From positions 1-10,962 of the forward strand of contig JAQSDS010000466.1 in NCBI GenBank assembly GCA_029946045.1: a stretch of 10,962 nucleotides of DNA, written 5' to 3'. The DNA comes from Rhodoferax sp. (GTDB lineage: Bacteria; Pseudomonadota; Gammaproteobacteria; Burkholderiales; Burkholderiaceae_C). Below, in pieces: positions 2,647 through 9,940 of this stretch (positions are counted from its first letter, which is position 1; the number at the start of each line of letters is the position of its first letter). Below the pieces are notes generated by a model, which ran no database searches, was not told the origin of the DNA, and saw only the letters and a list, made by a program, of their open reading frames with translations. A program made the translations under genes and the position numbers.

Positions 2647-2874
2647 ATGGCCAAGAAATTCCCCCTCCATCCCGCCAACCCGGAGCGCATTTGCTGGGGC
2701 TGTGACCAGTTTTGTGCCATTACCGCCATGGCCTGCTCTAACGAGCGCTCACCGCATCCGTCCGAATTGTTTGGCGAAGACTGGCTGGCCTGGGGTGAGC
2801 AGCAACTCGCGCCAAGTCCGTCGCCGACAGTCCCAAACGCCCCCTCAGAAAACAACACGAGAAAACAAACATGA
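2647..2874 (+). CDS. DUF3079 family small four-cysteine protein
   Basis: The product is 75 aa from the ATG at 2647, which gives the family-typical start MAKKFPLHP. An in-frame ATG at 2626 overlaps the ccoG stop and would add seven unconserved-looking residues, so I prefer the later start; an AGG lies about 8 bases before it. The core ERICWGCDQFC...MACSNE, with Cys16, Cys19, Cys23 and Cys30, followed by HPSELFGEDW, matches my recollection of DUF3079. The cysteine spacing suggests a metal or Fe-S site, but no function is established. The tail after residue 52 is rich in Pro, Ser and Asn and probably disordered. The protein is soluble, with no signal peptide. Its stop overlaps the nnrS start (ATGA), so it is almost certainly co-translated with nnrS and shares the NO-stress context. 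Confidence 0.8.
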   Translation: MAKKFPLHPANPERICWGCDQFCAITAMACSNERSPHPSELFGEDWLAWGEQQLAPSPSPTVPNAPSENNTRKQT

Positions 2875-4064
2875 CAGCCCCTGCCGAGAAAATAGAATCA
2901 GCCGCTCCCGTACCGCATGGCATGCCTTGGTTGCGGCTGGCATTTCGTCCGTTTTATCTCGGTGCGGCCCTGCTGGCGGCCCTCATCGTGCCACTCTGGG
3001 TGGCGATATTTCTGGGTGCAGTCCACTGGCAACCCACGCCGCCCACCGTACTCTGGCACGCCCATGAAATGCTGTTTGGCTTTGCCATCGCGGTCATCGT
3101 GGGGTTTCTGATGACCGCCGGCAAAAGCTGGACCGGTTTGGCCACCCCGCGTGGCCCGACTTTGGGCTTGTTGTTTCTGCTCTGGCTCAGCGCGCGGGTG
3201 GCGTCCTTGGTGGCAAGCTACCCGGTTTTTGCGGCCCTGGACCTGGCGCTGTTGCCCATCGTTGGACTCATTTTTCTGCGCTTACTGATCCGCTCACGCA
3301 ACTGGCGCAATGTACCGCTGGCGCTTATTTTGCTGCTGCTGACGCTGGTGAATTTGACGTTCCATTTGTCAGCCAATGGCGTGATCAACCTGGACCCGAT
3401 GCGCAGTTTGTATGCCGGGCTGGGTTTTGTGGTCATCATTGAATGTGTCATGGCTGGACGCGTGCTGCCCTTCTTCACGACCAGCGCCTTGCCGAACATC
3501 AAAATCGTCACCCTGCCCTGGCTGGACCGGACGGCGCTGGCGGCTACCGTCCTTGGCCTGGCGCTGTGGGTGACCGGCTGGCACAGTGGGCTGGCCAGCG
3601 CCACCCTGGCGCTGGCTTTTGCGCTCCATCTGATTCGCCAGTGGCGCTGGCACCCGCTGGCCACACTTGGCCGCCCCATTTTGTGGATTTTGCACGCGGC
3701 CCATCTTTGGCTGGCTCTGGGTTTGGGCTTGCTGGCCCTGGCGCAGGTGGGTTGGGTCACAACATCGATCGGGGTTCATGCGCTGGGCGTCGGCGCCACG
3801 GGTGGCTTGATCCTTGGCATGATGACACGCACCGCCCGGGGCCATACCGGTCGACCACTAACCGCAGACGCGCCGGAAATGGCGATCTATGCGCTGATCA
3901 TGCTGGCCGCACTGCTGCGGGTGCTGCTGCCCTGGCTGGTCCCGTCACTCTACGTCGGCGGCTTGGTGGCGTCAGCCGCAGCCTGGAGTGCTGCGTTCCT
4001 GATCTTCTTCTGGCAGTACACGCCCTGGCTGGTGAGCGCACGGCCCGATGGCAAGGACGGCTAA
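2871..4064 (+). CDS. nnrS: NnrS family membrane protein, nitrosative-stress resistance
   Basis: The product is 397 aa, normal for NnrS, and is almost entirely hydrophobic with roughly 12 membrane segments. Diagnostic stretches are LAFRPFYLGAALLA near residue 23, LWHAHEMLFGFA near 61-72, VGFLMTAGKSWTG near 77-89, MAGRVLPFFT near 194-203, and GMMTRTARGHTGRPL near 316-330. The His-rich motifs are consistent with the heme and copper reported for NnrS. Known NnrS proteins protect against NO-related stress, probably by preventing formation of iron-NO complexes, and are regulated by NO-responsive factors. The start overlaps the DUF3079 stop by ATGA, so translational coupling is likely; only a weak GAGA precedes it. 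The gene ends 90 bp before the convergent norD. Assignment to the family is secure. Confidence 0.93.
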   Translation: MTAPAEKIESAAPVPHGMPWLRLAFRPFYLGAALLAALIVPLWVAIFLGAVHWQPTPPTVLWHAHEMLFGFAIAVIVGFLMTAGKSWTGLATPRGPTLGLLFLLWLSARVASLVASYPVFAALDLALLPIVGLIFLRLLIRSRNWRNVPLALILLLLTLVNLTFHLSANGVINLDPMRSLYAGLGFVVIIECVMAGRVLPFFTTSALPNIKIVTLPWLDRTALAATVLGLALWVTGWHSGLASATLALAFALHLIRQWRWHPLATLGRPILWILHAAHLWLALGLGLLALAQVGWVTTSIGVHALGVGATGGLILGMMTRTARGHTGRPLTADAPEMAIYALIMLAALLRVLLPWLVPSLYVGGLVASAAAWSAAFLIFFWQYTPWLVSARPDGKDG

Positions 4065-4154: not shown

Positions 4155-5981
4155 TTAGCGGCGCGACAGCGTGGCCCAGGCTTGCGTGAGTTGCCTCACC
4201 AAATCTTGCGGCCGACGCACCATGGCGTAGCCGTTCTGACCAAACAGCATGGGCAGGTAGTCGTGCGCCTTGTCGTCGATGGTCACGCAAAACGGGATGA
4301 GTCCCGCAGCGTGCGCCTCGCGCACCGCCTGGCGCGTGTCCTCCAGACCGTAGCGGCCTTCGTAGACGTCCAGGTCGTTGGGTTTGCCGTCGGTGAGCAA
4401 CATCAGCAGGCGCTTGCGCTCAGGGCGCTCGGCCAATTGCCGGGTGGCGTGGCGAATGGCGGCGCCCATGCGGGTGTAATAACCAGGCTTGATGGCCCCA
4501 ACCCGGGCACGGCTGTCATCACCCCAACGTTCATCAAAGGTTTTGAGGTGCTGCATGCGCACATGCTGCCGACGCACCGAGCTGAATCCCCAAATGGCAA
4601 ACGGGTCACCCGCGGCGTGCAGCGCCTCGCCAAACACAAACAGCGCGTCCCGAATCACATCAATGACGCGTTCCTGGGGTGTGGCGTAGGCGTCGGTGGA
4701 CAAGGACAGGTCGGCCAGCAGCAGCGTGGCCAGGCTGCGGTCCAGTCGGGCCCGGCGCGTGTAGATGGGCGGCGTGTCGCTGCAAGGGGTGGCGTTGTCC
4801 AACTGGTCGACGTGAAAACGCACCCAGGCATCCAGATCAATCTCATCACCACTGTCCTGCCCGTGCACCGTGCGTGGGGCATCGCGCAGGGTTTCCAGGC
4901 GGCGGCGCAGCTGTCGGGCCGTGAGACGCAGGGCTGGTGACGGCGTGAAGGGCGCGCAATGCTGCGCCTGCATCACCTGCACCCGGCAATGGTCGGGCTG
5001 CAGCACGGCGCGGCGATAGTCCCATTCGGGAAATGCCATGCCCTCGCCCAAAGGCTTGTCGTCGGCGCTGCTGCTGGGTAAATCCAGGTCAAACTTGACG
5101 CGCGAGGCCAGCGTTTGCCCATCGGGAGCCACCGAGAGCTTGTCCATGTCGTTGGCGGCGTTCAGTGCGTTGCCATCTTCTTCGTCGTCGGTACTGCGGT
5201 TGACGTGCACCATTTCGCTCCACGACATCAGCGCTTCGGCACGAAACGGCAACACCATGGCATTGCGGCTCGGCTCGTGCGAGGTGGTCTGGGTGCGTCG
5301 GCGTTGCTTGTCATTGAGCGCAGTGGCTTGCTGGCGCGCGTCGGCACCTTTCTGTCCGGCCGGGCGATCGACCGCGCGGGTGTCCGTCGCACTCAGCCAC
5401 AACCAGACCGGAGCAACTTCCTGGGCTTGGCATGTCCGTTCTCCAGCGACTTGTTCTCTCAAAGCGCCCTGAACTGCAGACTCAGCCTGTTCTTTCTCCC
5501 CACCTGATGTTTGCAAATTCGGGCGTTGCACCAGGTGCGCTTGCAGCAGTGCTTGGTATCTTGAGGCAAAACCCGGAAACTGCGCCAGCGCCGCCTGCGT
5601 AGCGCGCAGATTGTCCTTGATCCAGTCACCGCGATGGACAAAACACGCCGACAGCATCGCCAGCCAAAGATACAGGTCACGATTGAGTTGCGCATCGGCA
5701 AACACGGCCAAGGTGGCGGGGAGCGCCAACACCTCAGGCTCCAGCTGGGCCGTATCAGCACGTTGCCCGCTGCCTGCGAGTTTTTGCAACCAGTGCCGCT
5801 GACCACCGACCGCCTGCATCGAGGCCGGCGTAAAACGCAGCACGGCCGGGCCACCAGCAGCGCGAAAAAAGATACCAATGGCTTTTTGCATGTCCTGCAG
5901 TTGCACTGCCGCCCCCGGATGATCCTGCCGCGTGACCTTGGTGATGGCCTGGTGCCACCAGCGTCCAAGCAATTCTTCCAT
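4155..5981 (-). CDS. norD: NorD, VWA-domain protein for NO reductase activation
   Basis: The product is 608 aa, consistent with NorD. Residues 1-160 are an alpha-helical N-terminal region. A polar, low-complexity middle (about 160-310) is rich in Gln, Asp and Ser. A von Willebrand factor A domain fills about residues 415-608. Its MIDAS metal site is visible as LLADLSLSTD (D424, S426, S428), with T503 in YYTRMGAA and D531 in LLTDGKPND. NorD acts with the AAA+ protein NorQ to insert the non-heme FeB iron into NorB in characterised cNOR systems. It is the last gene of the operon. Its ATG at 5981 overlaps the stop of the upstream Fe-S gene (TGATG), so translational coupling is likely. It is convergent with nnrS, and no clear terminator hairpin was found in the 90-bp gap. 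Confidence 0.93.
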   Translation of the reverse strand: MEELLGRWWHQAITKVTRQDHPGAAVQLQDMQKAIGIFFRAAGGPAVLRFTPASMQAVGGQRHWLQKLAGSGQRADTAQLEPEVLALPATLAVFADAQLNRDLYLWLAMLSACFVHRGDWIKDNLRATQAALAQFPGFASRYQALLQAHLVQRPNLQTSGGEKEQAESAVQGALREQVAGERTCQAQEVAPVWLWLSATDTRAVDRPAGQKGADARQQATALNDKQRRRTQTTSHEPSRNAMVLPFRAEALMSWSEMVHVNRSTDDEEDGNALNAANDMDKLSVAPDGQTLASRVKFDLDLPSSSADDKPLGEGMAFPEWDYRRAVLQPDHCRVQVMQAQHCAPFTPSPALRLTARQLRRRLETLRDAPRTVHGQDSGDEIDLDAWVRFHVDQLDNATPCSDTPPIYTRRARLDRSLATLLLADLSLSTDAYATPQERVIDVIRDALFVFGEALHAAGDPFAIWGFSSVRRQHVRMQHLKTFDERWGDDSRARVGAIKPGYYTRMGAAIRHATRQLAERPERKRLLMLLTDGKPNDLDVYEGRYGLEDTRQAVREAHAAGLIPFCVTIDDKAHDYLPMLFGQNGYAMVRRPQDLVRQLTQAWATLSRR

Positions 5982-6922
5982 CAGTGACGTTCTGCTTGTT
6001 CGCGCTGGCGTTGGCGCAAGGTTTCACGCAAAGCGTCCACGCCCACCTGCCATTCCAGCGTGGGCGTGCGCTGCTGCGCTTGCTGGGTACTGTCGCAGGC
6101 AGTCAGGCATTGGCCGCATTGCACACAGGAGAACATCATGCGTTTGATGTTGCGCGGGTTCAGGCGCATGGGGCAGGCATTGTCGCAAGCGGAACCGCGC
6201 GGGGCATCGCAGGTTTTGCACTCACGCGCCCGTTCCCGGGTAAAGGCCACCACCATGCCCTTGGGGTTGGCCATCCAGGCCAGGCTCTGGAACAAACCCA
6301 CGGCACAGCCAAAGCGGCAAAACAGGTGCCTGGCAAAGGCAAATTCCAGGGTAAATAGCGTGCTGGCAATCAGTAAAAATCGGGTTTGATTGGGTGTCAG
6401 CGTGCCGTGTATCAAGCCACCCCAAATGGCGACGGGCGGCAGCAAATAGGTGAGCAACGTGATTGCCCAGATGAAGCCCATCAGGGCACAACTCAGGGCA
6501 AACAAGGGCCACCAGCCAGCATGGGGGATGGCGCCCGGTTTGGGCGTGGGGCTTTTGTCCCAGAGGCTCAACTTGCCGCAGGCCCGGTGCAGCAGCTTGT
6601 TGAGCCCCTCCACCATCGAAAAATGCGGGCACAACCAGCCGCAATAGAGGCGGCCATAACGGTAGGCCACCCCCAAAAATACGGCCACCACCAGCAAGCC
6701 AGGCACAAAGGCGCGCCAAACCAGTTGCAGGGCGGCATCGGTCGCGCTGATTTGGCCCTGAGCCAGGGCGTCAATGCCCAGGGACCAGCGCTGCCCCAAA
6801 AACCAGAGCTGGGTGTCGGTCAAGTCAAAGCGCAACAGGTTGAGCGCCGGAGCCAACACAAACAGCGCAAAAAAGCCGGTCTGCGTGAGCAAACGCCAAC
6901 GCTGCATGTTGGCTGGTTTCAT
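5981..6922 (-). CDS. NapH/CcoG-like membrane 4Fe-4S polyferredoxin inside the nor operon
   Basis: The product is 313 aa. Membrane segments are predicted by eye near residues 12-30, 70-88, 137-163 and 180-197. LYCGWLCPH (C94, C98) and FCRFGCAVG (C202, C206) are the paired CxxxC motifs of the NapH/NosR/CcoG membrane ferredoxin group. A C-terminal double cluster domain follows: C235, C238, C246, C250-Pro, with unusual spacing CxxC-x7-CxxxCP, then a classical CVQCGQCLTAC (C266, C269, C272, C276). The last 35 residues are charged and helical. It lacks the C-terminal Ig-like domain of CcoG. Family members pass electrons across or into the membrane; no substrate can be read from sequence. Its start overlaps the norQ stop (ATGA) and its stop overlaps the norD start, so it is locked between the two halves of the NorQD chaperone. 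A role in cNOR assembly or electron supply is my inference. I know no settled gene name for it. Confidence 0.85.
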   Translation of the reverse strand: MKPANMQRWRLLTQTGFFALFVLAPALNLLRFDLTDTQLWFLGQRWSLGIDALAQGQISATDAALQLVWRAFVPGLLVVAVFLGVAYRYGRLYCGWLCPHFSMVEGLNKLLHRACGKLSLWDKSPTPKPGAIPHAGWWPLFALSCALMGFIWAITLLTYLLPPVAIWGGLIHGTLTPNQTRFLLIASTLFTLEFAFARHLFCRFGCAVGLFQSLAWMANPKGMVVAFTRERARECKTCDAPRGSACDNACPMRLNPRNIKRMMFSCVQCGQCLTACDSTQQAQQRTPTLEWQVGVDALRETLRQRQREQAERH

Positions 6923-7707
6923 GCGGCTTCGCCAAACAGGGCATGCACCACTTCAGCCAGCGCCTGCGCCGTGGCAACGTCGTCGGTCAGCGCATCAATG
7001 ATGGCGGCCTGACAGGCGGTTTGCAAGGGAAGTCCGGACGCGATCAGCCGACCCGCCGACACCAGCAAACGGGTGCTGGCGGTTTCTTCCAGGTCATGCT
7101 CGGTGAGCGAGCGCAAGGCTTTGGCCAATTGCACCAACCGGCTGGCCTGCACCTCGGAAATGCCGGTTTCGTTGCGCACAATATCCAATTCGACTTGCGG
7201 GCTGGGGTAGTTCATGCTCAGGCTGACAAAGCGCTGGCGGGTGCTCGGTTTGAGCCCCTTGAGCAGGTTCTGGTAGCCGGGGTTGTAAGAGATCACCAGC
7301 ATGAACTCGGGCGGTGCCGCCAGTTCCTCGCCGGTGCGCTCAATCGGCAAAATGCGCCGGTCGTCAGCCAGCGGGTGCAACACCACCGTGGTGTCCTTGC
7401 GCGCCTCGACCACTTCGTCAAGGTAGCAAATGGCCCCCAGACGCACGGCCCTTGCCAAGGGTCCGTCCGACCACTGGGTGCTGCCGTTGCCAATCAAAAA
7501 CCGCCCGACCAAGTCAGCCGCACTCAGGTCGTCGTGGCATGACACGGTGACCAGCGGCCGCTTGAGGCGCGCCGCCATGTGCTCGACAAAGCGGGTTTTG
7601 CCACACCCCGTCGGGCCCTTGATGAGCAGTGGCAATTGCTTGCGCCAGGCATGCTCGAACAAGCTGCATTCACCGGCCTGCTCGGCATAAAAAGGAAGGG
7701 CGGACAT
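6919..7707 (-). CDS. norQ: NorQ, MoxR-type AAA+ ATPase for NO reductase activation
   Basis: The product is 262 aa from the ATG at 7707; an in-frame GTG at 7713 would add two residues. I chose the ATG because the upstream GAG is spaced suitably for it and too close to the GTG. Walker A is GPTGCGKT (residues 31-38), Walker B is AICYLDE (about 92-98), and a sensor-1 Asn lies in VISYNPGY (about N142). STRQRFVSL supplies the probable arginine-finger region. These are features of the MoxR/CbbQ/NorQ clade. NorQ forms a hexameric ring that works with the VWA protein NorD to load FeB iron into NorB in studied systems. It lies 10 bp downstream of norB and overlaps the next gene by ATGA. The length is normal and all key motifs are intact. 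Confidence 0.94.
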   Translation of the reverse strand: MSALPFYAEQAGECSLFEHAWRKQLPLLIKGPTGCGKTRFVEHMAARLKRPLVTVSCHDDLSAADLVGRFLIGNGSTQWSDGPLARAVRLGAICYLDEVVEARKDTTVVLHPLADDRRILPIERTGEELAAPPEFMLVISYNPGYQNLLKGLKPSTRQRFVSLSMNYPSPQVELDIVRNETGISEVQASRLVQLAKALRSLTEHDLEETASTRLLVSAGRLIASGLPLQTACQAAIIDALTDDVATAQALAEVVHALFGEAA

Positions 7708-7717
7708 GCTCACAGAC

Positions 7718-9632
<1,915 letters not shown>

Positions 9633-9679: not shown

Positions 9680-9940
9680 TCAAATTCGGGCGAAGTCAAT
9701 CACGATGGCACCGGGCTCGCGCTGCACATAAGCAATAGAGACCGCTTCGCCATAGCGGGCACCGAGTTGATGCAGCAAGGGAATCGGGTCGTGGTCATTG
9801 CAAAAACGCATGGTCTCGCCGGGCGCAAGCGCATCCAGCGCGCCAAAAATTGCGGCATGACGAAAGCGTTTTGCAACGCCACGGGCGTCGAAAGGGTAAA
9901 TCGCTTCAGGGGTGACGTGACCGGTTGCGCAGGAACTCAT
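9680..9940 (-). CDS. DUF2249 domain protein, first gene of the nor operon
   Basis: The product is 86 aa and consists of one DUF2249 domain (SirA/TusA-like fold according to the family description I recall). The recognisable pieces are YPFDARGVAKRFRHAAIFGALDALAPGETMRF (positions 15-46, in segments) and NDHDPIPLLHQL (48-59), followed by a short strand-rich end. Members often occur beside NO, denitrification or hemerythrin-like genes, but no biochemical function is settled. The protein is soluble, with no signal peptide; its two cysteines are Cys4 and Cys47. The ATG at 9940 has a well-placed GGAG upstream and is the gene closest to the candidate NsrR operator. It should therefore lead the nor transcript, with norC 47 bp downstream. 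Confidence 0.85.
   Translation of the reverse strand: MSSCATGHVTPEAIYPFDARGVAKRFRHAAIFGALDALAPGETMRFCNDHDPIPLLHQLGARYGEAVSIAYVQREPGAIVIDFARI

Follow-up and report, generated by a model that had tools for sequence, protein, structure and literature searches.

A membrane polyferredoxin encoded between norQ and norD and its possible part in nitric oxide reductase maturation

Nitric oxide (NO) reductase carries out the step that makes nitrous oxide (N2O), and the operon of its cytochrome c-dependent form (cNOR) includes an accessory pair of genes, norQ and norD. In the stretch of DNA analysed here (the window, 10,962 nucleotides), which is contig JAQSDS010000466.1 (C466 in our numbering) of the Rhodoferax sp. 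assembly GCA_029946045.1 (86.7% complete), an open reading frame (ORF) of 313 amino acids (aa) lies between these two genes, and we refer to it as norX, and to its product as NorX, a provisional name coined in this analysis. NorX is a membrane polyferredoxin that forms a group apart from its characterized relatives, keeps its place next to norQ and norD across distant genomes, diverges in step with NorD, and has been lost from at least one nor locus. Our preferred reading, to which we give a probability of roughly 0.45, is that NorX is a polyferredoxin dedicated to cNOR, acting with NorQ and NorD in the maturation of the catalytic subunit NorB. Membrane polyferredoxins are a known kind of accessory protein.

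All genes of the operon (norC, norB, norQ, norX and norD) lie on the minus strand. Upstream of norX (5981..6922) are norC (9195..9632), which encodes a membrane-anchored cytochrome c and whose start was set on inspection at the ATG that opens MNQVKASGF (a purely mechanical call extends the ORF to 9683), norB (7718..9157), the cNOR catalytic subunit (COX1 family, 263 bits), and norQ (6919..7713), a MoxR-class AAA+ ATPase (AAA_5 127 bits, CbbQ_C 100 bits); downstream is norD (4155..5981), a 608-aa VWA protein and NorQ partner (VWA 30 bits), for which full-length homologues were found. A preliminary description of this DNA had placed a 313-aa membrane polyferredoxin between norQ and norD with overlapping codons on both sides, and this was confirmed from the sequence: in minus-strand reading, the norX start overlaps the norQ stop in an ATGA at 6922-6919, and the norX stop overlaps the norD start in a TGATG at 5983-5979. 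The further notion that these overlaps lock the gene in place is true of the window locus and does not extend to its relatives, where, with start codons chosen automatically, a 1-base overlap of norX and norD was seen in 39/127 rows with a readable norD neighbour and a 4-base overlap of norQ and norX in 4/136. It is the gene order that is conserved, not the overlapping codons.

A search with NorX returned 3230 homologous proteins at E<=1e-3, a limit at which NapH/CcoG-like proteins may also be reached. The best 80 of 313 matching loci in genome_contigs were taken as close relatives (among the genera in their titles are Rhodoferax, Hydrogenophaga, Acidovorax, Simplicispira, Piscinibacter, Roseateles and Azohydromonas, and among the species Hydrogenophaga pseudoflava and Acidovorax temperans), and all 80 have norQ-norX-norD in this order on one strand. 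Since these loci had been picked by similarity, genomes were also sampled at three levels (order, class and phylum), all drawn within the phylum. Among the 55 NorX loci fetched from the three samples, 51 again carry the three genes in order on one strand, so the nor-specific place, for which a synteny check had been proposed, was held at both scales. The exceptions are a contig edge with norX and norD only (L129), a locus with norX-norQ followed by norC-norB-norD (L150), one with norB-norX-norD and a divergent norQ (L152), and one with no norB, norC, norQ or norD match within its 14 kb and norD on another contig (L147); in five of the 55 (L102, L104, L107, L112 and L113), about 0.5-7 kb lie between norX and norD. 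Plasmids also carry the gene: the order is C-B-Q-X-D on a Sphaerotilus plasmid, C-B-X-(COX3)-(COX4)-Q-D on an Amphritea plasmid, and norC-norB-...-norX-nnrS on Thiothrix fructosivorans plasmid pTfr153 (L178:5546-11159), where no norQ or norD is annotated within the 18.9 kb stretch. Many relatives have an additional small gene between norQ and norX (e.g. L104:4886-5293, with the same place in many sampled loci), which by eye encodes a membrane protein of ~130 aa and gave no Pfam match in the two members scanned. In most loci it directly follows norQ, ahead of norX where norX exists, and it is also present in loci that have no norX (L083, L089-L092, L207, L209, L211, L214 and L221).

The pairing with norD was then counted genome by genome, with at least 100 bits required for NorX and at least 246 bits for NorD, and with the window's own genome left out of the samples. 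NorX and NorD were found, respectively, in 21 and 40 of the 199 genomes of the order sample, in 32 and 42 of the 274 of the class sample, and in 10 and 34 of the 298 of the phylum sample, with NorD present in 21/21, 30/32 and 10/10 of the NorX carriers (Fisher one-sided p = 1e-17, 5e-28 and 1e-10, not corrected for relatedness). In sum, a cNOR-type norD accompanies NorX in 61/63 sampled genomes. NorX scores are bimodal, with full copies at 240 bits or more and most fragments at about 115-200, as against another group at 50-85 bits, and therefore these counts do not depend on the choice of threshold. Viewed from the norD side, three NorD carriers are common to more than one sample, which leaves 113 distinct genomes; NorX was detected in 61 and not in the other 52, and is therefore not a required part of NO reductase in general. 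In two NorX carriers no NorD was matched at E<=1e-65. One is G315 (470 contigs), where the NorX hit lies close to the start of a contig; the other is G293 (560 contigs, 99% complete), in which NorX is in two pieces in different frames. A copy in two pieces also occurs in G313, and a genome of the same genus as G293 (G407) has norD and lacks NorX. The 55 fetched loci leave out eight of the 63 carriers (G029, G079, G157, G190, G264, G293, G313 and G315). Named holders belong to the Betaproteobacteria, to other Gammaproteobacteria as GTDB defines that class, and to the Magnetococcales, where one sampled NorX (L157) has the same sequence as the Magnetococcus marinus MC-1 protein; Sideroxydans lithotrophicus, Noviherbaspirillum denitrificans and a Thiobacillus sp. 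can be added by protein match alone.

The protein itself matches Fer4_5 (PF12801; 39.5 bits against a gathering cut-off of 22), which places it in that superfamily, and the Pfam scan found this domain alone, with no FixG_C, FMN_bind or regulatory domain. Across 81 aligned homologues, which share 39-90% identity with the window NorX, eleven cysteines are present in every row and a twelfth in 80/81. They make up two CX3C motifs, C94/C98 (within CX3CPH, residues 94-100) and C202/C206 (202-206), and two motifs of the [4Fe-4S] type, C235/C238/C246/C250 and C266/C269/C272/C276; H100 and H199 are likewise present in 81/81. The CX3CPH pattern made by H100 (CGWLCPH) occurs in 32/32 NorX proteins and in 0/46 others of our family tree (NapH, CcoG, NosR, YccM, the G2 group described below, and related rows), and H199 (RHLFC) is common to NorX, YccM and most G2 rows. 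An AlphaFold2 model (mean predicted local distance difference test score 84.2) has long helices at residues 3-26, 60-89, 137-160 and 177-196. Together with the Arg/Lys-rich segments that follow helices 2 and 4, these suggest a protein that crosses the membrane four times and keeps its two ends and its Fe-S part on the cytoplasmic side, and from the motifs we infer two [4Fe-4S] clusters, which would lie on the cytoplasmic side, beside NorQ and NorD.

The earlier label of NorX as "NapH/CcoG-like" is apt at the level of the Fer4_5 superfamily and not beyond it; the curated models for both families score NorX far below their cut-offs. NorX resembles NapH, the ferredoxin subunit of the Nap quinol dehydrogenase, in length, in its Fer4_5 membrane module and in its two Fe-S motifs, but scores 43.8 bits against 213.05 (TIGR02163) and 40.3 against 234 (NF007013); moreover, the nor blocks of the three annotated plasmids hold no NapG or NapC, although on the Sphaerotilus plasmid a nap operon that includes a NapH gene stands just upstream of the nor block. 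An assignment to NapH was rejected by these cut-offs and by the separate clade described below. With CcoG/RdxA/FixG, NorX shares the membrane CX3C motifs and the two Fe-S motifs, and both are accessory genes of an enzyme of the haem-copper oxidase family that needs a metal inserted into its active site. An assignment to CcoG was nevertheless rejected by the cut-off (38.8 bits against 316.7, TIGR02745), the lack of the C-terminal Ig-like FixG_C domain, and again the separate clade; NorX genes also differ by sitting in nor clusters and by encoding CGWLCPH at a site that in almost every CcoG row holds a CG[YF]..CPQ-type motif. NosR/NirI proteins likewise combine a CX3CP membrane module with an Fe-S motif and are accessory to a denitrification enzyme, but the periplasmic flavin mononucleotide (FMN)-binding domain, FMN_bind, which is part of the 873-aa NosR of Cupriavidus necator, is absent from NorX, and this candidate was rejected as well. 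The closest non-NorX matches by score (about 50-85 bits) are CcoG-like proteins of 440 aa, here called G2 (23 rows in this analysis), most of which share with NorX both its N-terminal pattern and a second motif of the form RHxxC[RK]xxC. They differ in size (mostly 395-530 aa), in a CGW.CPQ motif, in the presence of FixG_C (one of two scanned), and in loci that have no NorB or NorC match. The genes of one G2 sub-clade, whose proteins have extra C-terminal cysteines, adjoin NorD/CbbO-like genes in the absence of norCB (L119:6456-10711, where a NorQ/CbbQ-like gene is also present, L120:5947-8960 and L101:4083-7111), so that a polyferredoxin is linked to MoxR/VWA genes here for a second time.

The preliminary description had proposed a phylogeny with NapH, NosR and CcoG, and had named NorX falling inside ordinary NapH or CcoG clades, with random genomic context, as the outcome that would speak against it. 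This was tested, and the opposite was found. In a tree of 78 proteins, built by a quick method with branch support from the Shimodaira-Hasegawa-like approximate likelihood ratio test (SH-aLRT) and no bootstrap, the 32 NorX rows are set off by a single branch (SH-aLRT 100), apart from NapH, CcoG, NosR and G2. CcoG, NapH (two named rows only) and G2 (22/23 rows) each form a group of their own, and the branches that would define a sister group of NorX have support of 58 and below. Long branches were flagged, above all YccM and NosR; YccM, a CcoG-like protein with no Ig domain and represented by a single E. coli row, groups with NosR and was marked as unsure. Mapped onto a NorB tree that took in 10 of the 80 close relatives, NorX presence requires 16 changes against a shuffled mean of 27. 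NorX is absent from one separate clade of nine rows, of which four belong to the order or class of the window and five to different classes of the phylum, and the remaining 81 rows comprise 57 with and 24 without it, including close pairs that differ (G031/G076, G276/G395 and G735/G733). At L221:1996-2148, a decayed 51-codon N-terminal norX stump lies between the small membrane gene and norD, and shows directly that the gene was lost where it stood. NorX therefore seems to be a partner of long standing that can be dispensed with, and transfer as well as loss is possible behind its patchy presence.

Co-divergence links NorX with NorD. Rank correlations of pairwise distances among the five nor genes were converted to partial correlations over the 46 of 55 sampled loci in which all five exceeded their score limits. 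NorX-NorD reached 0.53 (0.40-0.62 in 70% subsamples, two runs; reached by 0/1000 permutations), equal to the 0.53 of NorQ-NorD, which are known binding partners, and the other values were -0.01 for NorX-NorQ, 0.19 for NorX-NorB and 0.13 for NorX-NorC. The partial correlation of NorB with NorC, which make up one enzyme, is only 0.19, a yardstick against over-reading such numbers, and the co-divergence of NorX and NorD is no proof of contact. In the 19 loci with no detected small extra gene, NorX-NorD was still 0.47 (NorX-NorQ 0.07), and therefore linkage alone is an insufficient explanation.

NorB is related to the CuB-containing subunit of cbb3 oxidase, with a non-haem iron (FeB) replacing CuB, which makes CcoG a possible guide to the role of NorX. 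CcoG is described in PMC7558416 as a two-cluster membrane cupric reductase needed for normal cbb3 activity; in its absence this activity is severely reduced, and so is the amount of the CuB-containing subunit. For cNOR, the sections of PMC9976466 on FeB insertion describe NorQ and NorD as required, leave the source of Fe2+ open, and report that purified NorQD failed to reactivate FeB-less cNOR and that the soluble fraction from cells with the whole nor operon partly did so. According to the same paper, the nor operon of Paracoccus has been expressed in E. coli. In the scheme that we propose, four membrane helices would present the two CX3C motifs of NorX at the cytoplasmic face, electrons would most likely be taken from the membrane quinol pool, and they would be spent where NorD docks on NorB at that face. 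The simplest use would be to keep the inserted FeB ferrous, with NorX serving FeB as CcoG serves CuB, i.e. as an iron analogue of the Cu(II)-reducing CcoG. In a bolder form of the proposal, which we regard as doubtful, NorQ, NorX and NorD would together make up a membrane-bound iron-insertion machine, in which NorX, fed by quinol, would be devoted to reducing ferric iron or to loading Fe(II), at a site formed by C94, C98, H100, H199, C202 and C206; if true, NorX would be the iron counterpart of the copper route through CcoG and would supply the redox component that present models of FeB insertion lack.

Several observations weigh against a role in maturation. NorX is missing from 52/113 norD-carrying genomes and from the norCBQDEF operon of Paracoccus as described in PMC9976466, and thus FeB insertion works in its absence somewhere; since Paracoccus and about half of the norD carriers manage on their own, NorX may be a non-essential aid that raises yield or widens the conditions (iron-poor, partly oxic or NO-stressed) under which insertion succeeds. 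CcoG itself is reported in PMC7558416 not to reduce Fe(III). A search of the PDB gave no fold match for NorX. The mean identities of NorX (0.52) and NorD (0.51) are similar, which helps their correlation, and linkage and similar rate together may be partly behind it. Finally, the absence of norD from G293 may be real, given an assembly that is 99% complete, in which case the pairing is broken there.

NorX might instead donate electrons to NO reductase, oxidizing quinol and passing electrons to NorC/NorB in the manner of NapH for periplasmic nitrate reductase. Fer4_5 and the CX3C motifs are common to NorX, NapH and NosR, and the relevant portion of PMC5928378 has NapH transferring electrons from quinol and NosR towards N2O reductase; we nonetheless consider this unlikely, as the Fe-S motifs would be cytoplasmic and NorC is periplasmic, co-divergence with NorB (0.19) and NorC (0.13) is weak, NorX is missing from about half of the sampled norD carriers, and the three annotated plasmid nor blocks have no NapG or NapC, although the Sphaerotilus nap operon lies just upstream. 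Alternatively, NorX could keep NorQ/NorD active, either by reducing a disulphide that blocks the NorQ P-loop or as a redox gate that limits FeB insertion to reducing, denitrifying conditions. PMC13036017 reports a disulphide in the ATP site of one NorQ subunit and proposes redox regulation, and the P-loop cysteine (GPTGCGKT), which we infer to be one of its two partners, occurs in the window NorQ and in 49/53 readable sampled loci with NorX. It also occurs in 31/36 readable loci that have no NorX, and so does not follow NorX, which co-diverges with NorD and not with NorQ; this explanation seems rather improbable to us.

Fe-S clusters react with NO, and NorX could thus be a sensor or sink, whose NO-damaged clusters tune NO reductase activation or shield the maturation site. 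Its patchy presence would fit such a condition-dependent function, but Pfam found no regulatory domain in NorX, and the retention of twelve cysteines, including both CX3C motifs, is a better fit to electron transfer, which makes a sensor or sink distinctly improbable. A passenger role for NorX, or that of a general polyferredoxin placed in the operon by chance, would agree with the many lineages that lack it and with the NorX pieces in G293, which has no norD match. With the order kept across Burkholderiales, other Gammaproteobacteria and Magnetococcales, and norD present in 61/63 carriers, a passenger is very hard to credit. Between the two roles first suggested for the protein, an electron-supplying subunit or an assembly factor, we favour the assembly factor, on the basis of its position, its co-divergence with NorD and the precedent of CcoG.

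Our searches of the open-licence literature found no name or function for NorX in the passages they reached, including those of PMC4689864, PMC8139620, PMC3475470 and PMC4794192, and its homologues are labelled in databases as '4Fe-4S binding protein', 'polyferredoxin' or 'ferredoxin-type protein NapH', labels of which the first and last obscure the gene. The statement that standard descriptions of the cNOR cluster do not include such a protein was borne out in the cluster descriptions of PMC9976466 and PMC13036017; the latter (2026) names six nor genes there, no ferredoxin among them, and models insertion by force on NorD, and the passages on insertion in both leave open the iron route to the FeB site. 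With its divergence following that of NorD, and with about half of the sampled norD carriers possessing it, NorX offers a specific candidate for a redox step. In the gene table of PMC10390337, norQ and norD are ten tag numbers apart in both organisms, with tags seemingly stepped by five, and therefore some gene between them may be unlisted.

A protein of 500-550 aa with a NosR-like CX3CP motif and an Fe-S motif is encoded downstream of norD in several Gammaproteobacteria (L129:2871-4523, L131:11322-12860, L141:12645-14237 and L143:11615-13132), and by eye the N-terminus is FMN-binding-like in three of these. The window has a true CcoG gene of its own in the nor neighbourhood (1172-2626; 493 bits against the TIGR02745 cut-off of 316.7), separated from norD by nnrS (2871-4064), and the same genome has a second CcoG-like gene, an open frame of 487 aa, on another contig (C319; L181). 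Between ccoG and nnrS, a small cysteine-containing ORF (2626-2874) overlaps each by a few bases and presumably resembles DUF3079. An Rrf2-family regulator is encoded at 560-1039, with RirA and NsrR as its nearest models and scores under both cut-offs, and a DUF2249 protein (9680-9940), retained in several close relatives, is encoded immediately upstream of norC.

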